Origin: Lachnospiraceae bacterium
Lineage (GTDB): Bacteria > Bacillota > Clostridia > Lachnospirales > Lachnospiraceae
NCBI GenBank assembly: GCA_015058015.1
Contig: SVDM01000007.1
Coordinates: 1 to 64,000 of the forward strand
DNA: 64,000 bases
Reading direction: 5' to 3'
A program made the position numbers and the translations under genes. Numbering within the stretch: the first letter of the stretch is position 1; each line of letters starts with the position of its first letter. The notes beneath the pieces were generated by a model that saw only the letters and a list, made by a program, of their open reading frames with translations, did not search any database and was not told the origin of the DNA. Below are positions 20,903 through 28,662 of the stretch, in pieces.

Positions 20903-22360
20903 TTAATTTGACCCTTGAGTATTATAATAGAAATTATCCTTATAGGCTCCACGCCTAAGCTCCGGATTCTTCTCATAATATGCGTTCTTGTCTTCGTACA
21001 TCCTCTCATCCGCAACTCGAAGAGCTGTCCTAACATCTCTGCAATCCTTCTGCACACAGCCTCCTATTGCGAATATTACCTTGTCGTATTTTGATGACAC
21101 TTCCCGAAGTTTTTCTATCTTGCCGGCCATCTCTTCTTCCGTCGCACCGGAATATATAATGGAGAATTCGTCGCCGCCTGCTCTGAATATATGCTCGTCA
21201 TCAAAAACTTCCTGCAGGGCTTTTGCCGCATTCTTAAGAAGCTTATCCCCGGCAGCATGTCCGAACTCGTCATTTACCCTTTTAAGACCGTTTAGGTCCG
21301 CAAAGATAACACCTACAGACTCTCCGGCTCCCGCTATTCCTCTGCAGAATTTGTCTACAAGGTTATTCATCTCATTACGGTTTAATACTCCCGTAAGCAT
21401 GTCTCTCGAACTAAGGATTTTCAACCTGTCTACAAGAAGGAAACTGTCGATCTCCGAGGCAAGAATAAAAATCGTCACTTCCAAAGCCTGCTTAATCATC
21501 TCAGATTTGGCACCGTCAAAGTTCATGGCATACATATAACCAAGCAGGGTATCCCTGGTCTTAAGGGGATACAGGATAATATTCCTGATATTGGCCTCCT
21601 CTAAAGACTTATACCATGTGGGATGTCGTTCCTTAACGACTTCCATAGCCTGGGCATCCTTGGCTATAAGACAGTTGCTTCCGAAGATTACCGTCTCTTC
21701 CCAAGATCTGACCATATCGTACAAATCATCGCTGAAGAAATCTGTAATAGTCCCTACTTTGCTATCCTCTGCCATATCTTCACATAAAAGTGAGCAGCTC
21801 TTTTCGTAATCATCGATTAGAAGGATACTGCAACACTCAGCCTGACATATACGTCTTATGTCCTTTATTACATCCTGCATTACCTTGCGGAAATCCTTGG
21901 CTCCTCGAATCTTGATACAGGTTTCAAGAACCTCTGAAGCGATGCTGCCATCCACATTATTAACATTGGATGAATCCGGCTCAAAGTTAAATTCCATGGT
22001 GTATGTACAATAGGCCAGATTCTCATCTTCGTAGTTAATAGGCATAAATACCATGTTAAGCCATACATCAAATCTGTCCGGACGAACATAAGAATGTATC
22101 ACTTTTTTCTCGATAGCCGACGAATATACGGCATTCTCAAAGTTCAAATCCTTGGTAATGTATTTCGTGTACTCGGAATTAGGAACAAACTCTTCCCTTA
22201 TAACGTCTCCTCCCGCTTCCGTAAGATCATCAACGGAGTGGGTATACGCCTCGTTACCTGCTACTATTCGTATTGTTCCGTATCCGCCGTCCGGCTTTTT
22301 CTCTATCGATATTACACTGGACATGGCTCCCAGGCTGTCCGCTAATTTCTGAAAATCCAT
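20903..22360 (-). CDS. GAF-like and GGDEF domain diguanylate cyclase
   Basis: 485 residues, soluble. Residues 1-140 have no domain I can name; about 150-310 resemble a GAF sensor (FRKVMQDVIKDIRRICQAECCSILLIDD, then LYPLKTRDTLLGYMYAMNF). The GGDEF domain (about 318-460) has LTGVLNR, FADLNGLKRVNDEFGHAAGD and an intact active-site GGDEF at 395-399, so it should make cyclic-di-GMP from GTP. The inhibitory RxxD site usually just upstream is absent (FDDE occupies that place). It follows the two-receiver regulator by 24 bp and is the likely output of the kinase cassette. Confidence 0.88.
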   Translation of the reverse strand: MDFQKLADSLGAMSSVISIEKKPDGGYGTIRIVAGNEAYTHSVDDLTEAGGDVIREEFVPNSEYTKYITKDLNFENAVYSSAIEKKVIHSYVRPDRFDVWLNMVFMPINYEDENLAYCTYTMEFNFEPDSSNVNNVDGSIASEVLETCIKIRGAKDFRKVMQDVIKDIRRICQAECCSILLIDDYEKSCSLLCEDMAEDSKVGTITDFFSDDLYDMVRSWEETVIFGSNCLIAKDAQAMEVVKERHPTWYKSLEEANIRNIILYPLKTRDTLLGYMYAMNFDGAKSEMIKQALEVTIFILASEIDSFLLVDRLKILSSRDMLTGVLNRNEMNNLVDKFCRGIAGAGESVGVIFADLNGLKRVNDEFGHAAGDKLLKNAAKALQEVFDDEHIFRAGGDEFSIIYSGATEEEMAGKIEKLREVSSKYDKVIFAIGGCVQKDCRDVRTALRVADERMYEDKNAYYEKNPELRRGAYKDNFYYNTQGSN

Positions 22361-22384: not shown

Positions 22385-23155
22385 TTACGACGCGAAAAAC
22401 TCCTTAAGCTTATTCCTAAGATCTTCCCTGGTAGTGGTCTTTAGTATATATCCGCTGGGCTTTAAGGCCATAACTCTTGTTACACTTTCTCTGGTTCCCA
22501 CTCCCGTGAGGAATATAACCGGTATATCCTTGGTAGCCGACTCTGACCGAAGCATCTCTAACACCTGTGGTCCGTCAACAATAGGCATCTCATAATCAAG
22601 AAGAATAAGATCCACCGGATTGTTAACCAGGTAGGTAATTGCCTGCATACCTGCCGTAACCATAACCACCTGATATCTGTCGGCTATCCACTCTCTTACT
22701 ACTTTGGCATATGTGGGGTCGTCATCGACAATAAGAATCTTTTTCCTGGCAGAATACTCTGCGTCAGCCTCAATTGCCGCATTCATCTTAGACACCAGCA
22801 TGTCCATGTTAAGGGGTCTTTCAAGCCATACGTAATTCTGAAGATCCGGGATCTCTCCCGCAAGAAAATCGTGGTATTCCTTCTCTCCGATAACTATCAT
22901 GTTCTTCTTCTTCTCGGATATAACATGAAGTATCTCGAATATCTTCCTGGATTCGTCCTTGTCTTCTTTTGTATTCTCAGAGAGATACATAAGGAACAAA
23001 TCCGCTCTGTCGGAATACATCATTATTCCGTCAAGGTCCCTTACCACCGCAATGATGGAAAAACCTTTATCTCCTAATTTTTTTTCAAGTCCCCTTACGA
23101 CCACGCTGTAACTAAAAGCGATAATTACAACGTTCCTACTGCCGGTGTTTCCCAT
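22385..23155 (-). CDS. Response regulator with degenerate plus intact receiver domain
   Basis: 256 residues and no DNA-binding domain. Residues 138-255 form a complete receiver: acidic pocket Asp144-Asp145, phospho-acceptor Asp187 in LILLDYEMP, Thr at FLTG and Lys239. Residues 8-130 fold similarly (VVIIAFSYSVVVRGLEKKL, NMIVIGEKEYHDFL) but lack the acidic residues and acceptor, so they look like a pseudo-receiver. With no output domain of its own it may pass phosphate or act by protein contact on the downstream GGDEF protein. 12 bp separates it from the DegV-kinase gene upstream. Confidence 0.86.
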   Translation of the reverse strand: MGNTGSRNVVIIAFSYSVVVRGLEKKLGDKGFSIIAVVRDLDGIMMYSDRADLFLMYLSENTKEDKDESRKIFEILHVISEKKKNMIVIGEKEYHDFLAGEIPDLQNYVWLERPLNMDMLVSKMNAAIEADAEYSARKKILIVDDDPTYAKVVREWIADRYQVVMVTAGMQAITYLVNNPVDLILLDYEMPIVDGPQVLEMLRSESATKDIPVIFLTGVGTRESVTRVMALKPSGYILKTTTREDLRNKLKEFFAS

Positions 23156-23167
23156 AGATTAATCCCC

Positions 23168-26100
23168 CTATACCTTTCCTTCCAACGCAGTAATAATACT
23201 CTTGTAATTCATTATATCAAAGTTCTCTTTGATTGTGTTATATAATTCAATCTCAGAATCAGGAATCCTATAGTCTTCCATCTCCTTATACATATCCTTC
23301 ATGCGCTCCGCGTCTTCCGCTTCGGCAGCCTCTTTGGCCATTTCGTAGAAGCTTTCCATAATAAAGTCTTCTGCTATGGGTTTAGACTCATCCTCGGCTT
23401 CCTCCTTGTGACATACAACGTCTAGCTCTTTAACAAGGCTTTGAAGCATTTCCATGACCCTGTCGTTGTTGGCTTTGATATATTCTGTGTCGGCGTTCTT
23501 GCCTGCCATTTCAAGCTTCTCAGCCTCATCCCCCAGTTCCATGGCTCCGATTAATCTGGAGGAACTCTTTAAGGCATGAACCTTTATTGTATAGTTCTCA
23601 AAGTCTTCTGCCTCATAGAACCTTCTTATCTCCTCTTCCTTTTCTTTTGCACTGTCATAGTATATCTGAAGCACTTCTCTGAAAAGGTCTTCTGAGCCGC
23701 TGTTTTTTATGGCATAGTCCACATCCAGGTTCTCTAAGGCATCATACCATTTGGGCTCCTCAGTCATCACTTCCTCGCTCTCACCAGTGTCTGCCTTACT
23801 TTTCTCGGCTTTATTGGCCTCTGCTTCTTTCCTCATGTTCTCTTCTATTATCTGTATGGCTCTGGCTTCCTCATAAGCATTCTCAGCTCTCTCAATCATC
23901 TTTCCGAGATGATATTCTTTCTCACCCTTTGCCATAAACAAAAGACCAAAGGTTCCGGGACCGCAATTAGCCGCTATACCCGCAGAAGCCTTCTGAATTA
24001 CCACATGATCAAAATGCACCCGCTTCTCAATCTCATCTGCTATCCACAAGAGATGTTCTTCCGCTATCTCTGCATAATTGATAAATATCAGGTCCGTATC
24101 CGGGTTGGCATTAATACTCAAAGCCCTCTTTATGTATCTTTCATAACATCTCTTTAAGTTCCCTCGCAGGAGCTTGCCCACATCGAAGCCGTCACTGTTT
24201 AACTTTAGGCAGGGGCGAAGCCATAAGGATTTCAGCATTCTGTCCATGCGTGAAGAAAGGATTCCTCTTCTGGTTAAGTAGCTTGTATCCGCCACAACAA
24301 AACTGCAACGAAGTCTGGACTTCGCTTCTTCCAGTTCTTCCACAATCTGTTCTTCTGTCTTGCCCTGCTTTGCCAGCTTAGCGGCAATAAGAGCCAGCAT
24401 TCCCGTAGCATTGGAAAGAGACCCTGAATCAACTATGGTTACATTGCCAAATGCCTTGGCAGCCGCAGAAGCCCTTTCATACTCTTTGCTTATTCCGTTG
24501 GTAATTGTAATATGAATAATATGATGGGCTCTTTGCAGATGCTCCGCAAAGAATATCATAAACTCTTCCTCTGTGGGAGCAGCGGATTCTGCTATCACGC
24601 CTCCATCATCCAAGTACCTTATCATCTCATCGGACACAGCTTCAACACCATCGTAGAACAAGCCGCTGTCGGTTCTGATGGTGAAGGGTATTCTTTCTAT
24701 CTGAAGGTCTCTTACTACGCTCTCCGGAAGATCGGCCAGGCTATTGGTTGTAATGATAACAGGTTTCTTTCGTATATAACCGGAAGCCGTATTCTTTCTG
24801 CCTCCCGTAAGCTCTACGTTTTCATTTAGAACCAGTTTTTCCTTGGGCAATAATCCGAGAATTGTCTCTTCTAACTGTCTGCCGGACACAGGCTTAACCA
24901 CATATCTGTCAAAACCTGTTTCACTGTAGAGCAGTATATTCTCTGCGTCTGCATTTGCCGTAAGTACCACAATGGGAACATCTCGGTTTAGTCCCCCCAC
25001 CTGATTACGGATTTCTTTGAAGGCGTCTATACCGTCCATTACCGGCATAAGGTGATCCATGAATATCAAATCATACTTGTTCTTCAAGGTCATCTCCAAG
25101 GCTTCCTGGCCATTGGTAGCCTCATCTATTGTCATCTCGGTTCCTTCAAGTAGTTTAGTCTCTACCTCCAGGTTCATCTCATTATCATCAACAATAAGAA
25201 TTCTGGCATCCGGAGCAAAGAAACTGTGCTCATATTTTTCAAATGTGGTAACTGCGCTACCCGCGGATAACTCTATGTTTCCAAGTTTCTTATCTGTTGC
25301 AATCTTTTGCTTTAAGGAGACGGTAAAGGTTGAACCCTGGGCATAGATTGAACTTGCGGTAACAGTACCTCCCATAAGGTCCACCAGGTTTTTAACTATG
25401 GACATTCCAAGACCGGTTCCCTCTATTTTACGGTTCTTCTTTTCTTCAACCCTCTGGAAAGAATCAAAGATGTGGGGAAGGGCTTCCTGGGGAATACCCG
25501 TTCCGGAATCGGATATTATGGCACGGAAGATTATATTGTCATCGTCCAAAGGTTCATATTCCATCTGGAGTTTGACGAATCCCTCGTGGGTATATTTAAC
25601 CGCATTATTAAGAATATTAATAAGAATCTGCTTAATCCTTATCTCATCCCCGTACAGTGTGGCAGGAAGAGTGGGATCAATGTTTACCTTAAACTCCAGT
25701 CCCTTTTGCTCTGCCTTAAGCCATACCATATTAACCAGCTCCGATACCATATTACCCACGCTGTAATCAACGGGAATAATCTCCATCTTTCCCGCTTCAA
25801 TCTTACTTATATCAAGAACATCATTAATTAGGGCCAGCAGCATACGTCCTGCACCCTGAATATTTCTGGCATCTTTTAGTATCTCCGGGGTGGCATCTTC
25901 CTGACGAAGAATGATTTCGTTAAGTCCGAGAACCGTATTAATGGGAGTCCTTATCTCATGGCTCACGCTTGAGAAAAATCTGTTCTGTTTGCGGTTTAAT
26001 TCCTCTACTTCTCTGGTCTTTTCCTTGGCAACGTCATTTTCAAGCTTATAGATTTCCTTCTGGAAAGCCAGCAGGATAAATATTACCCCTCCAACGATAA

Positions 26101-26605
26101 TCATAGCCGCCAATGTATCGAAGTAGTTGCCAAATCTTGAATAGGTAACAATAAAGTTCGGGAAATGATAACCTATTATCCAACAGGCTATATTGACCAC
26201 TGCATTAAGGATTATCATTACAATCTGCATTATTCCGTCAATTATCAATACCACATATATGCTTCCCAGCAAAAGCCAGATGGGCGCTCCTCCATATACT
26301 CCGCCGTTGGTAAAAAACATTACGGGCTGGAAGATAAATATCAATACAATGCTAATGACTATTCTTGCAGACCTTATCCTATTGGTCTTGTAGCTGAATA
26401 TGACATATAATGAGAAGAGTATTGCTCCCACCAAAGTGGATATTGTGGCAGCTATAGGCTCTCCCATAGCCAGTCCTGAAGGCACAGCGACAAAAAGTGC
26501 TATCAATACCGTAATCGAAAACACTACAAAAGACCTGTCTTTATAGTCTATATCAGAGTTGTACAGATATGTACGCAGTCGCTTAAAGGGTCCGTTTATA
26601 ATCAT
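23168..26605 (-). CDS. Hybrid histidine kinase with embedded DegV domain and C-terminal HPt
   Basis: 1145 residues. Order: about 5-6 membrane segments (25-185); HisKA with His216 in SVSHEIRTP; HATPase with Asn333-334 and glycine boxes DSGTG and GTGLG; receiver 468-585 with Asp473-474, acceptor Asp517 and Lys571; a DegV-like region about 613-895; and HPt with His1010 in VHALKSSSRL. The DegV stretch shows the family landmarks: TNSLADLP (usually TDSxxDLP), SAAPT (usually TSxPS), ITNGISKEYERA, VDSGSLSNATGML, DTSYLTRRGILS, LRPCLKLNSDG and GPGTFGLLF. DegV proteins bind fatty acids, for example FakB delivering them to the kinase FakA. ATG overlaps the previous gene by 4 bp. The protein could both sense a lipid and relay phosphate. 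Confidence 0.9.
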   Translation of the reverse strand: MIINGPFKRLRTYLYNSDIDYKDRSFVVFSITVLIALFVAVPSGLAMGEPIAATISTLVGAILFSLYVIFSYKTNRIRSARIVISIVLIFIFQPVMFFTNGGVYGGAPIWLLLGSIYVVLIIDGIMQIVMIILNAVVNIACWIIGYHFPNFIVTYSRFGNYFDTLAAMIIVGGVIFILLAFQKEIYKLENDVAKEKTREVEELNRKQNRFFSSVSHEIRTPINTVLGLNEIILRQEDATPEILKDARNIQGAGRMLLALINDVLDISKIEAGKMEIIPVDYSVGNMVSELVNMVWLKAEQKGLEFKVNIDPTLPATLYGDEIRIKQILINILNNAVKYTHEGFVKLQMEYEPLDDDNIIFRAIISDSGTGIPQEALPHIFDSFQRVEEKKNRKIEGTGLGMSIVKNLVDLMGGTVTASSIYAQGSTFTVSLKQKIATDKKLGNIELSAGSAVTTFEKYEHSFFAPDARILIVDDNEMNLEVETKLLEGTEMTIDEATNGQEALEMTLKNKYDLIFMDHLMPVMDGIDAFKEIRNQVGGLNRDVPIVVLTANADAENILLYSETGFDRYVVKPVSGRQLEETILGLLPKEKLVLNENVELTGGRKNTASGYIRKKPVIITTNSLADLPESVVRDLQIERIPFTIRTDSGLFYDGVEAVSDEMIRYLDDGGVIAESAAPTEEEFMIFFAEHLQRAHHIIHITITNGISKEYERASAAAKAFGNVTIVDSGSLSNATGMLALIAAKLAKQGKTEEQIVEELEEAKSRLRCSFVVADTSYLTRRGILSSRMDRMLKSLWLRPCLKLNSDGFDVGKLLRGNLKRCYERYIKRALSINANPDTDLIFINYAEIAEEHLLWIADEIEKRVHFDHVVIQKASAGIAANCGPGTFGLLFMAKGEKEYHLGKMIERAENAYEEARAIQIIEENMRKEAEANKAEKSKADTGESEEVMTEEPKWYDALENLDVDYAIKNSGSEDLFREVLQIYYDSAKEKEEEIRRFYEAEDFENYTIKVHALKSSSRLIGAMELGDEAEKLEMAGKNADTEYIKANNDRVMEMLQSLVKELDVVCHKEEAEDESKPIAEDFIMESFYEMAKEAAEAEDAERMKDMYKEMEDYRIPDSEIELYNTIKENFDIMNYKSIITALEGKV

Positions 26606-28662
26606 TTATCTTCCCTCCCTTCATAACAAATCATGTTATCGGGAAGGACTCTCTTCATAACCCTCTCGAAGTCTGCTATATCTATGGGCTTAGCGATGAA
26701 GCCGTCAAAGCCCTCTCTTATGAACATCTCCTTTGCCCCACTAAGGGCATTGGCGGTAAGGGCAATAATAATCGGATGTCTGCCGTGGTCTGATGCCACA
26801 TTACGCAGCCTGTGCATGGTTTCCACGCCATCCATCTCAGGCATCATGTGATCCATAAATATCAAATCGTAATCAAACTCGCTGATAATATACTTGTTCA
26901 ATGCATCGATACCGCTTTCCGCCGTGTCGGTATCCAGCTTATATTCTTTAAACAATCCTGTGGCTACCACCAGGTTCATGGGCTCGTCATCTACTATAAG
27001 AGTCTTAATTCCCGGGAATGTCACATTGCCGATTTCTTCAATATCATCCAATCCTTTATAACCGGTTTTCTGATTAAGAGCTTTAACAATCGGCAAGCCG
27101 TAAAGAGGCGGAGTAAGCTTGTTTACCCTGCTGCCGGGCGGCAGTCTTAAGCCCGTCTCATCCGATACGGATACAACGATTCCCTGTTCTGCAATCTTTT
27201 CTACATAAGTCCAGTCATCTTCGTATTCATCCTGACCCATAAATACATGAGAAACATCAAGAGCATCCACCAGGGTCTTTAACTCCCTTATGTCCCCGGC
27301 TGAGAACAGATGCACTCTAAGACCAAGCGCCAGCGTAATGGCCATGGTGTTATAGAACTCCCGCAATTTGGGATATACGTACTTGGTGGGGTTGTCGTAG
27401 AATACCACGCTGCCGGAGAAGTCCGGATCCACCGTAAGGCAGGGAGCAGGATCTATCACTTCCTGCGGAATGGAGAGCCTTACTGTTGTGCCTTCTCCCT
27501 TCCTGCTTTCAATTAGAACGAAGCCACCCATCTTATGTACAAAACCGTATACTATGGGCAGGCCGATACCTATTCCGCCTGTGCTTCTGTTTCGCTTCTT
27601 GTTAGCCTGGTACATTCCTTTGGAGACATTTGCAATCTCATCTCTGGTCATACCAATGCCCATATCCGATACTTCTATGGTAAGGTTTACACCGTATTCT
27701 CTCTTTTTGGTGGACACACCCACATAGATTCCGCCTTCCTTGGTGAACTTAATTGCGTTATCAAGGAGATGCCTGAAGAGCTTGTGGAGCTTTCTGATAT
27801 CTCCCTTCATCATAGCGGGAACCATGGGATCTATATCCACTACAAGTTCCAATTCATCTTTCCTGTCATTTTGATTAAAAAGAGCTACCACATCATTAAT
27901 AAGAGAAGTACTCATGTAGTTCTCTTCTTCAAGGGCCAGCTCGCCTCTTTTTATTTCCGTATAATCCTGGATATCTTCAATCTGATAGGACAGACGTATA
28001 CCCGCCTGCCTGATAGATAAGACCTCGTGGGTCTCCTTGTCTTTTAACATGATGGTGGTCATTCCGTTTACTACGTTGACCGGTGTACGAAGTTCGTGAG
28101 AAATGTTGGATAAGAAATCCTCCATGTCAGTATCGTACTTTTCTATTTCTCTTTCTCTTCTCTCTATTCTGTCTCTGTCTGCGATTCTATGGGTAACACT
28201 TAGTCGACAGAACACGTACATACATACTACAATTCCGCAATGCAGTAGTAATCTAGATACTGCCAGAGAGTCTGTAATATCTATGTCCGAGCCGTACTGA
28301 AGGTATATCTGAATCCCCACAAGTCCAAAGAACTCCAAAAGTATTATGTTCAATATGACTTTCTTATCAATGAGGGCGAAAACCGCCATAAAAAGCATGG
28401 AGATTACAGCTATATCAAAATAGCTTGTTCTATGAATACCATGGAAGAATATGATAAGCATTCCGCAGATAAAATAGAGAACAAGACGATATGCGGCATC
28501 AAACCGCTGGGTAATATGGACAAACCACAAAGCTATAATGGCAACACCCACCAAGGGCGGAAGATAAAACTCCCAACCCAGAATAAAGCTTTCTACTATG
28601 AAGGCCACTGCCGCCAATGACTCGACGATCAGTATCATCCGGTCAATCTTGATTCTTTCCAC
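26602..28662 (-). CDS. Hybrid sensor histidine kinase with internal pseudo-receiver
   Basis: 686 residues starting at GTG 28662 after GGGGGGAAG. About five to six membrane segments (10-152) with little extracellular sequence precede a coiled region, HisKA (His189 in NISHELRTP), HATPase (Asn302, DMGIGM, GGIGIGLP), a degenerate receiver-like region (about 415-525, SGSVVFYDNP...) without acceptor, and a true receiver 552-675 (Asp558-559, acceptor Asp604 in LIFMDHMMPEMDG, Lys658). Without an HPt of its own it may use the HPt at the end of the next protein, with which it overlaps by ATGA. First gene of the signalling cassette. Confidence 0.9.
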   Translation of the reverse strand: MERIKIDRMILIVESLAAVAFIVESFILGWEFYLPPLVGVAIIALWFVHITQRFDAAYRLVLYFICGMLIIFFHGIHRTSYFDIAVISMLFMAVFALIDKKVILNIILLEFFGLVGIQIYLQYGSDIDITDSLAVSRLLLHCGIVVCMYVFCRLSVTHRIADRDRIERREREIEKYDTDMEDFLSNISHELRTPVNVVNGMTTIMLKDKETHEVLSIRQAGIRLSYQIEDIQDYTEIKRGELALEEENYMSTSLINDVVALFNQNDRKDELELVVDIDPMVPAMMKGDIRKLHKLFRHLLDNAIKFTKEGGIYVGVSTKKREYGVNLTIEVSDMGIGMTRDEIANVSKGMYQANKKRNRSTGGIGIGLPIVYGFVHKMGGFVLIESRKGEGTTVRLSIPQEVIDPAPCLTVDPDFSGSVVFYDNPTKYVYPKLREFYNTMAITLALGLRVHLFSAGDIRELKTLVDALDVSHVFMGQDEYEDDWTYVEKIAEQGIVVSVSDETGLRLPPGSRVNKLTPPLYGLPIVKALNQKTGYKGLDDIEEIGNVTFPGIKTLIVDDEPMNLVVATGLFKEYKLDTDTAESGIDALNKYIISEFDYDLIFMDHMMPEMDGVETMHRLRNVASDHGRHPIIIALTANALSGAKEMFIREGFDGFIAKPIDIADFERVMKRVLPDNMICYEGREDK

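Follow-up and report, generated by a model that had tools for sequence, protein, structure and literature searches.

A hybrid histidine kinase with a DegV/FakB-type domain forms part of a probable two-kinase phosphorelay in Lachnospiraceae

On the minus strand of the window, the 64,000-nucleotide stretch of Lachnospiraceae DNA analysed here, a hybrid histidine kinase (HK2) is encoded which carries a complete DegV domain between its receiver and its HPt domain. The linkage of this type of domain to a phosphorelay is strongly supported by sequence comparisons: the fused DegV domains form a single clade, they are obligately associated with a second hybrid kinase (HK1), and they have been shuffled among the proteins of the locus. 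On balance, it is considered somewhat more probable than not that a single capture event brought a DegV/FakB-type lipid-binding domain into a membrane-anchored two-kinase phosphorelay, where it would serve as a cytoplasmic, membrane-proximal lipid sensor.

HK2 is encoded at positions 23168–26605 in a single reading frame of 1145 residues, which starts with ATG and contains no internal stop, and stops are present throughout the opposite strand. The N-terminal membrane region (residues 21–180, positions 26066–26545) was delimited by hydropathy and the full-length model, giving five hydrophobic segments with the former and six helices with the latter. It is followed by HisKA (residues 207–272, 25790–25987; Pfam, 3.5e-15) with His216 in the motif SHEIRTP, HATPase_c (residues 319–433, 25307–25651; Pfam, 6.8e-27), the receiver (Response_reg, residues 469–582, 24860–25201; Pfam, 2e-24) with Asp517, the DegV domain (residues 617–892, 23930–24757) and HPt (residues 977–1041, 23483–23677; Pfam, 3.1e-7) with His1010, all on the minus strand. 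Each of the five Pfam domains exceeded its own curated cut-off. The reading frame, the membrane helices, the HATPase domain and the positions of His216, Asp517 and His1010 had all been proposed in an initial annotation made from the sequence only, and they were recovered here without change. The phospho-acceptor His, Asp and His are all present in HK2 and are invariant in 34 full-length homologues. From its domains and catalytic residues, HK2 can be classed as a hybrid histidine kinase with HPt. The protein ends in a helical extension (residues 1066–1145, 23171–23410, minus strand) that was recognized from the secondary structure of the full-length model; no family match was obtained for it, and it is also present in at least 57 long-form homologues. 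The full-length model displays a long helix leading into the kinase and two flexible links (residues 596–611 and 933–950) flanking the DegV domain, but with a pTM of 0.37 the relative placement of the domains is unreadable.

The identity of the DegV domain was established by profile search and by structure. Where a DegV-like region had been proposed at about residues 613–895, a full-length match to PF02645 was obtained at residues 617–892 (137.8 bits for a cut-off of 27, E=5.9e-40, profile positions 3–279 of 280), and the domain also passed NCBIfam TIGR00762 (146.1, cut-off 99.7). A model of the domain built from 53 related domains reached a mean pLDDT of 92.9 and a pTM of 0.90. Comparison of this model using Foldseek and VIA-align ranked solved DegV/FakB structures first, with model residues 13–298 covered. 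The matches included 2dt8 (Z 33.3, 275 residues), 1pzx (Z 33.2), FakB2 (4x9x, Z 32.5) and palmitate-loaded FakB1 (5uto, Z 31.8); they spanned both subdomains, with Z of 31–33 and 264–281 residues aligned. The profile search and the structure prediction, both suggested along with the initial annotation, have thus yielded a significant DegV match and a two-subdomain fold.

The survey of Lachnospiraceae that had likewise been suggested revealed that the fusion is common in the family. A DegV-domain match at 1e-30 or better was found in 113 of 397 genomes of this family, and many of the matches fall in frames of about 890–930 or 1115–1170 residues. Most long-form records that carry a name belong to Lachnospiraceae, among them rumen and gut Butyrivibrio, Pseudobutyrivibrio and Eubacterium, while some are metagenome bins labelled Oscillospiraceae or Ruminococcaceae. 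Among the fetched loci the main architecture is TM-HisKA-HATPase-REC-DegV, with HPt present or absent. In a sample of the order (295 genomes) one fused copy was detected in another family (f17), and in a sample of the class three were detected in family f200; the phylum sample searched at 1e-70 gave no fused copies beyond the family of the window. The fused DegV kinases L203, L204 and L205 of family f200 lie outside the window's family, and two of them have a GGDEF-REC gene immediately before HK1. In plasmid records, the DegV matches did not exceed about 31% identity and carried either a DegV family annotation or none. With more than 100 loci sharing the architecture, and with partner and catalytic residues conserved, a chance fusion or an assembly artefact is scarcely credible, in spite of one copy from the same genus that is split by a frameshift; an artefact or an error in gene prediction was ruled out by the genome survey. 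In this split copy (L058:4719-6461 and the upstream ORF), the DegV kinase is broken where the receiver begins, giving two ORFs that overlap, through decay, sequencing error or programmed frameshift.

Directly upstream of HK2 and on the same strand lies the gene of HK1 (26602–28662, minus strand), with Pfam matches to HisKA, HATPase and REC and a 4-base overlap with HK2 (ATGA). Both this partner kinase and the rule of one HPt per pair described below were overlooked in the initial annotation. Of the 127 fused loci with room for it, 118 have an HK1 homologue as the preceding gene on the same strand, and in 96 of these the two genes overlap or abut. As these loci are kinase pairs, kinase neighbours recur in any case, and since histidine kinases are all alike, only a test with a segment specific to HK1 addresses this point. 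The segment between HATPase and REC (27013–27456, minus strand) was therefore used as a probe and partner marker. No Pfam match was found for it; its position is receiver-like, and it may be a degenerate receiver. Among the 397 genomes, 51 contained the segment, at a total of 68 places; at 60 of these places a same-strand DegV of the fused kind was found within 6 kb. At one further place (contig 4 of genome G330) the DegV had been found in the domain survey at 1e-30, and the remaining seven run into contig ends, two of them past the start of the DegV kinase. All 61 testable copies in the 397-genome sample thus stand beside a DegV domain.

One HPt was found in 110 of 114 HK1–HK2 pairs and never on both proteins. 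HK1 carries it in 30 pairs and the DegV kinase in the other 80, where DegV is C-terminal in 77 and N-terminal in 3. Three of the four pairs with no visible HPt are located at a contig edge, and the fourth belongs to a tandem of two DegV kinases. With a single HPt per pair, HK1–HK2 looks like one phosphorelay.

In a maximum-likelihood tree, all the fused DegVs and two unfused neighbours of kinases formed one clade (support 100/99), separate from the other stand-alone DegVs. The place of the domain in the locus was found to vary. In L077, L084 and L085 it precedes the kinase as an N-terminal domain. The last of these (L085:308-5044, minus strand) encodes a protein of 1578 residues with N-terminal DegV, double Cache, kinase, receiver and HPt. 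In two HK1-type proteins (L087:4451-7063 and L098:3290-5878) DegV stands in the place of the receiver and HisKA was not detected; these proteins look catalytically dead. They precede different downstream genes. L097 encodes a DegV-HPt protein without kinase, L086 has DegV as a gene of its own, nine bases downstream of a hybrid kinase, and in L196 the neighbouring DegV is either separate or frameshifted. That the domain was captured once and then rearranged while its partners stayed the same represents strong evidence for joint function. The constant company of HK1 and the ability of DegV to replace a receiver (L087, L098) would also suit a structural or protein-interaction module, ligand-free and contributing for example a dimer or partner-kinase contact, with the signal entering via the membrane region. 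The five different positions occupied by DegV, however, are more easily reconciled with a ligand module than with a fixed interface.

The binding site was analysed in an alignment of 142 fused DegV domains with the 22 nearest stand-alone ones, using the numbering of FakB1 (sequence as in PDB 6alw). In FakB1, the carboxylate of the ligand is bound through a Ser171-His270-Thr62-ligand-Ser95 network; the Fak reaction depends on Arg173, and docking to FakA and the membrane on Arg205 (PMC8892158, PMC9136124). According to the alignment, the two ligand-network hydroxyls of Thr62 and Ser95 are kept in HK2 as Ser674 (24584–24586) and Ser706 (24488–24490), and His270 is replaced by Asn880 (23966–23968; all minus strand). 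This pattern is general: Ser or Thr is found at position 62 in 136 and at position 95 in 130 of the 142 fused domains. At position 270, Asn occurs in 138 of 142 fused domains compared with His in 20 of the 22 stand-alone ones, and the two stand-alone domains with Asn are the unfused DegVs neighbouring kinases inside the fused clade. A TNS motif in place of TDS (Asn621), pointed out in the initial annotation, was confirmed; the alteration of the pocket Ser/Thr reported with it did not hold, as the hydroxyls are retained.

Arg173 corresponds to Ile782 in HK2 and is kept in 46 of the 142 fused domains, with 20 of 36 in the short form and 22 of 100 in the long form. At position 205, Arg is found in a single fused domain out of 142, that of HK2 itself (Arg814), and a hydrophobic residue in 126. 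HK2 combines the FakB hydroxyls at 62 and 95 with the absence of His270 and Arg173, and on these last two residues an annotation as FakB was ruled out. Sensing of acyl-phosphate status and presentation to FakA, as put forward initially, have become less likely, since Arg205, Arg173 and His270, with the roles described above (PMC8892158, PMC9136124), are mostly gone across the clade. The host genome encodes four other, stand-alone DegVs, as well as one FakA-type protein with Dak2, and PlsX, and on visual inspection the FakB motifs are intact in three of the four DegVs; with this set the fused protein is not needed as FakB. It is very improbable that HK2 contains an ordinary FakB which still feeds FakA, the kinase being a mere membrane anchor. 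The presence of FakA and PlsX in the host and the docking Arg814, unique to HK2 among 142 domains, would fit such a role, but an Arg essential to phosphoryl transfer is replaced by Ile782, His by Asn880, most relatives have neither of the two Arg residues, and four stand-alone DegVs are at hand.

The same substitutions bear on the interaction module. His270, Arg173 and Arg205 are all central to FakB function (PMC8892158, PMC9136124), and their loss would agree with a domain that has given up its ligand. A scaffold, on the other hand, would not be expected to retain the hydroxyls at both network positions in nearly the whole set (136 and 130 of 142), nor a fixed Asn at the position of His270, and a role as a purely structural module is considered improbable. 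The mutant FakB1(R173A) was described as retaining fatty-acid exchange while being inactive with FakA in the Fak assay (PMC9136124), which indicates that loss of the Arg alone does not abolish binding. The stability of S. aureus FakB was reported to depend on the residues of the ligand network (PMC8892158), and the Asn-type DegV could for this reason have lost fatty-acid binding.

In order to see where fused and stand-alone domains differ consistently, a post hoc check was made of columns more than 80% conserved in both sets yet different. Only three were obtained: from stand-alone to fused domains, Thr62 becomes Ser, Leu165 becomes Thr and His270 becomes Asn. Positions 62 and 270 belong to the carboxylate network, and 165 to a mobile region that exchanges in FakB1 (PMC8892158). 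The contrast is conservative, as most stand-alone rows were picked for their closeness to the fused clade. The fused proteins are themselves very divergent (27–50% identity), and an Asn fixed across them implies selection for a specific new property. These three switches, all at the head-group or mobile site and leaving the overall fold unchanged, together with the missing Arg latch, are the basis for a different-ligand reading, in which the same pocket with an altered head-group site would fit a non-carboxylate, a bulkier amphiphile or another small molecule. The domain nevertheless retains two of the three network hydroxyls, and Asn and Ser would still be able to bind a carboxylate; a changed ligand class is regarded as unlikely, though less so than the structural role. 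Fatty-acid sensing by the fused DegV is plausible as a hypothesis.

The output of the relay was sought among neighbouring genes. A response regulator of 256 residues (22385–23155, minus strand) with one REC at residues 140–250 (Pfam) and no domain assigned to its N-terminal half follows HK2, and in 27 long-form loci a homologue comes directly after the DegV kinase; the protein in the window is the candidate output and likely the regulator that would receive phosphate from HK2. A GAF-GGDEF protein (20903–22360, minus strand; Pfam) is a possible output with a weak link. An output through c-di-GMP was rejected as a conserved part of the system, GGDEF genes being near only 21 of 114 fused loci. 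A lipid-gene neighbourhood was discarded too: the downstream genes are an alanine symporter, DUF6976, fumarase-Uma2 or FtsZ, without any lipid theme, and as they vary among loci no link of the output to lipid metabolism was seen. A role as anti-phage defence kinase was dismissed, no PADLOC match being found. DUF6976 (PF22396) and the alanine symporter recur downstream in many loci, as judged from ORF size and two Pfam scans (L166:7951-8913, L046:9551-10510). Directly downstream of another DegV kinase, an ORF of 391 residues (L056:3420-4592, minus strand) shows an odd pairing of Fumerase_C (PF05683) and a Uma2 domain of the restriction-endonuclease-like type (PF05685).

In the lipid-sensor reading favoured here, the fused DegV would still bind a single-chain lipid, a fatty acid or some other, drawn from the membrane or the cytosol, and would no longer pass it to FakA. 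Occupancy by lipid would shift the kinase/phosphatase balance of the HK1–HK2 pair, and phosphate would travel from His216 to Asp517 (and the HK1 receiver), then to His1010 and on to a response regulator encoded by another gene, for instance that at 22385–23155. The Asn and Ser/Thr changes may tune head-group recognition or the rate of exchange, making the domain a sensor rather than a carrier; the His-to-Asn change in particular might alter the choice of head group or quicken exchange. A precedent is found in the inhibition of SaeRS signalling by intracellular fatty acids (PMC5539427). As a counterpoint, the membrane region and not DegV could be the sensor. The more specific proposal, that the Asn-type DegV subfamily, derived from FakB and free of FakA, is the shared sensor of a two-kinase/one-HPt unit reading the pool of free fatty acids or related lipids, and hence a class of lipid-sensing phosphorelay not previously described, is put forward tentatively.

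The DegV kinase appears to be undescribed, both for the new type of sensor-like domain that it adds to a hybrid kinase and for the new DegV subfamily that it represents. No description of the fusion was found in the open-access literature, and an earlier mention elsewhere is possible; automatic annotation surely lists such proteins singly. The fixed His-to-Asn change delimits the subfamily, for whose members an annotation as FakB is inappropriate, and the altered binding site suggests a lipid-responsive signalling switch. DegV kinases are common in gut and rumen Lachnospiraceae, bacteria living among dietary and host lipids. How the free fatty-acid pool of bacteria is sensed by kinases is an open question, and a FakB-like receptor inside a kinase makes its testing feasible with one protein.

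Compared with known systems, the DegV domain of HK2 shares the full-length fold and two network hydroxyls with the DegV/FakB proteins (PF02645, TIGR00762; FakB1/FakB2, Thermus 2dt8, Geobacillus 1pzx), but it is placed inside a kinase, has Asn for His270, and belongs to a group in which Arg173 is mostly lost and Arg205 is lost in the relatives. With hybrid kinases of the TorS/BarA/ArcB type HK2 has HisKA-HATPase-REC-HPt and the catalytic residues in common. Kinases of that type usually have a linker between REC and HPt, whereas HK2 has DegV at this place and is preceded by a second, obligate hybrid kinase. In S. aureus, the two-component system SaeRS likewise reacts to the pool of fatty acids inside the cell (PMC5539427); the mechanism there is not known, while in HK2 the DegV domain is covalently joined to the kinase. 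FakB4 of S. pyogenes, also a DegV protein, acts in lipid homeostasis as a regulator and not in uptake (PMC10138225), but it stands alone, whereas the DegV domain of HK2 is joined to a kinase.
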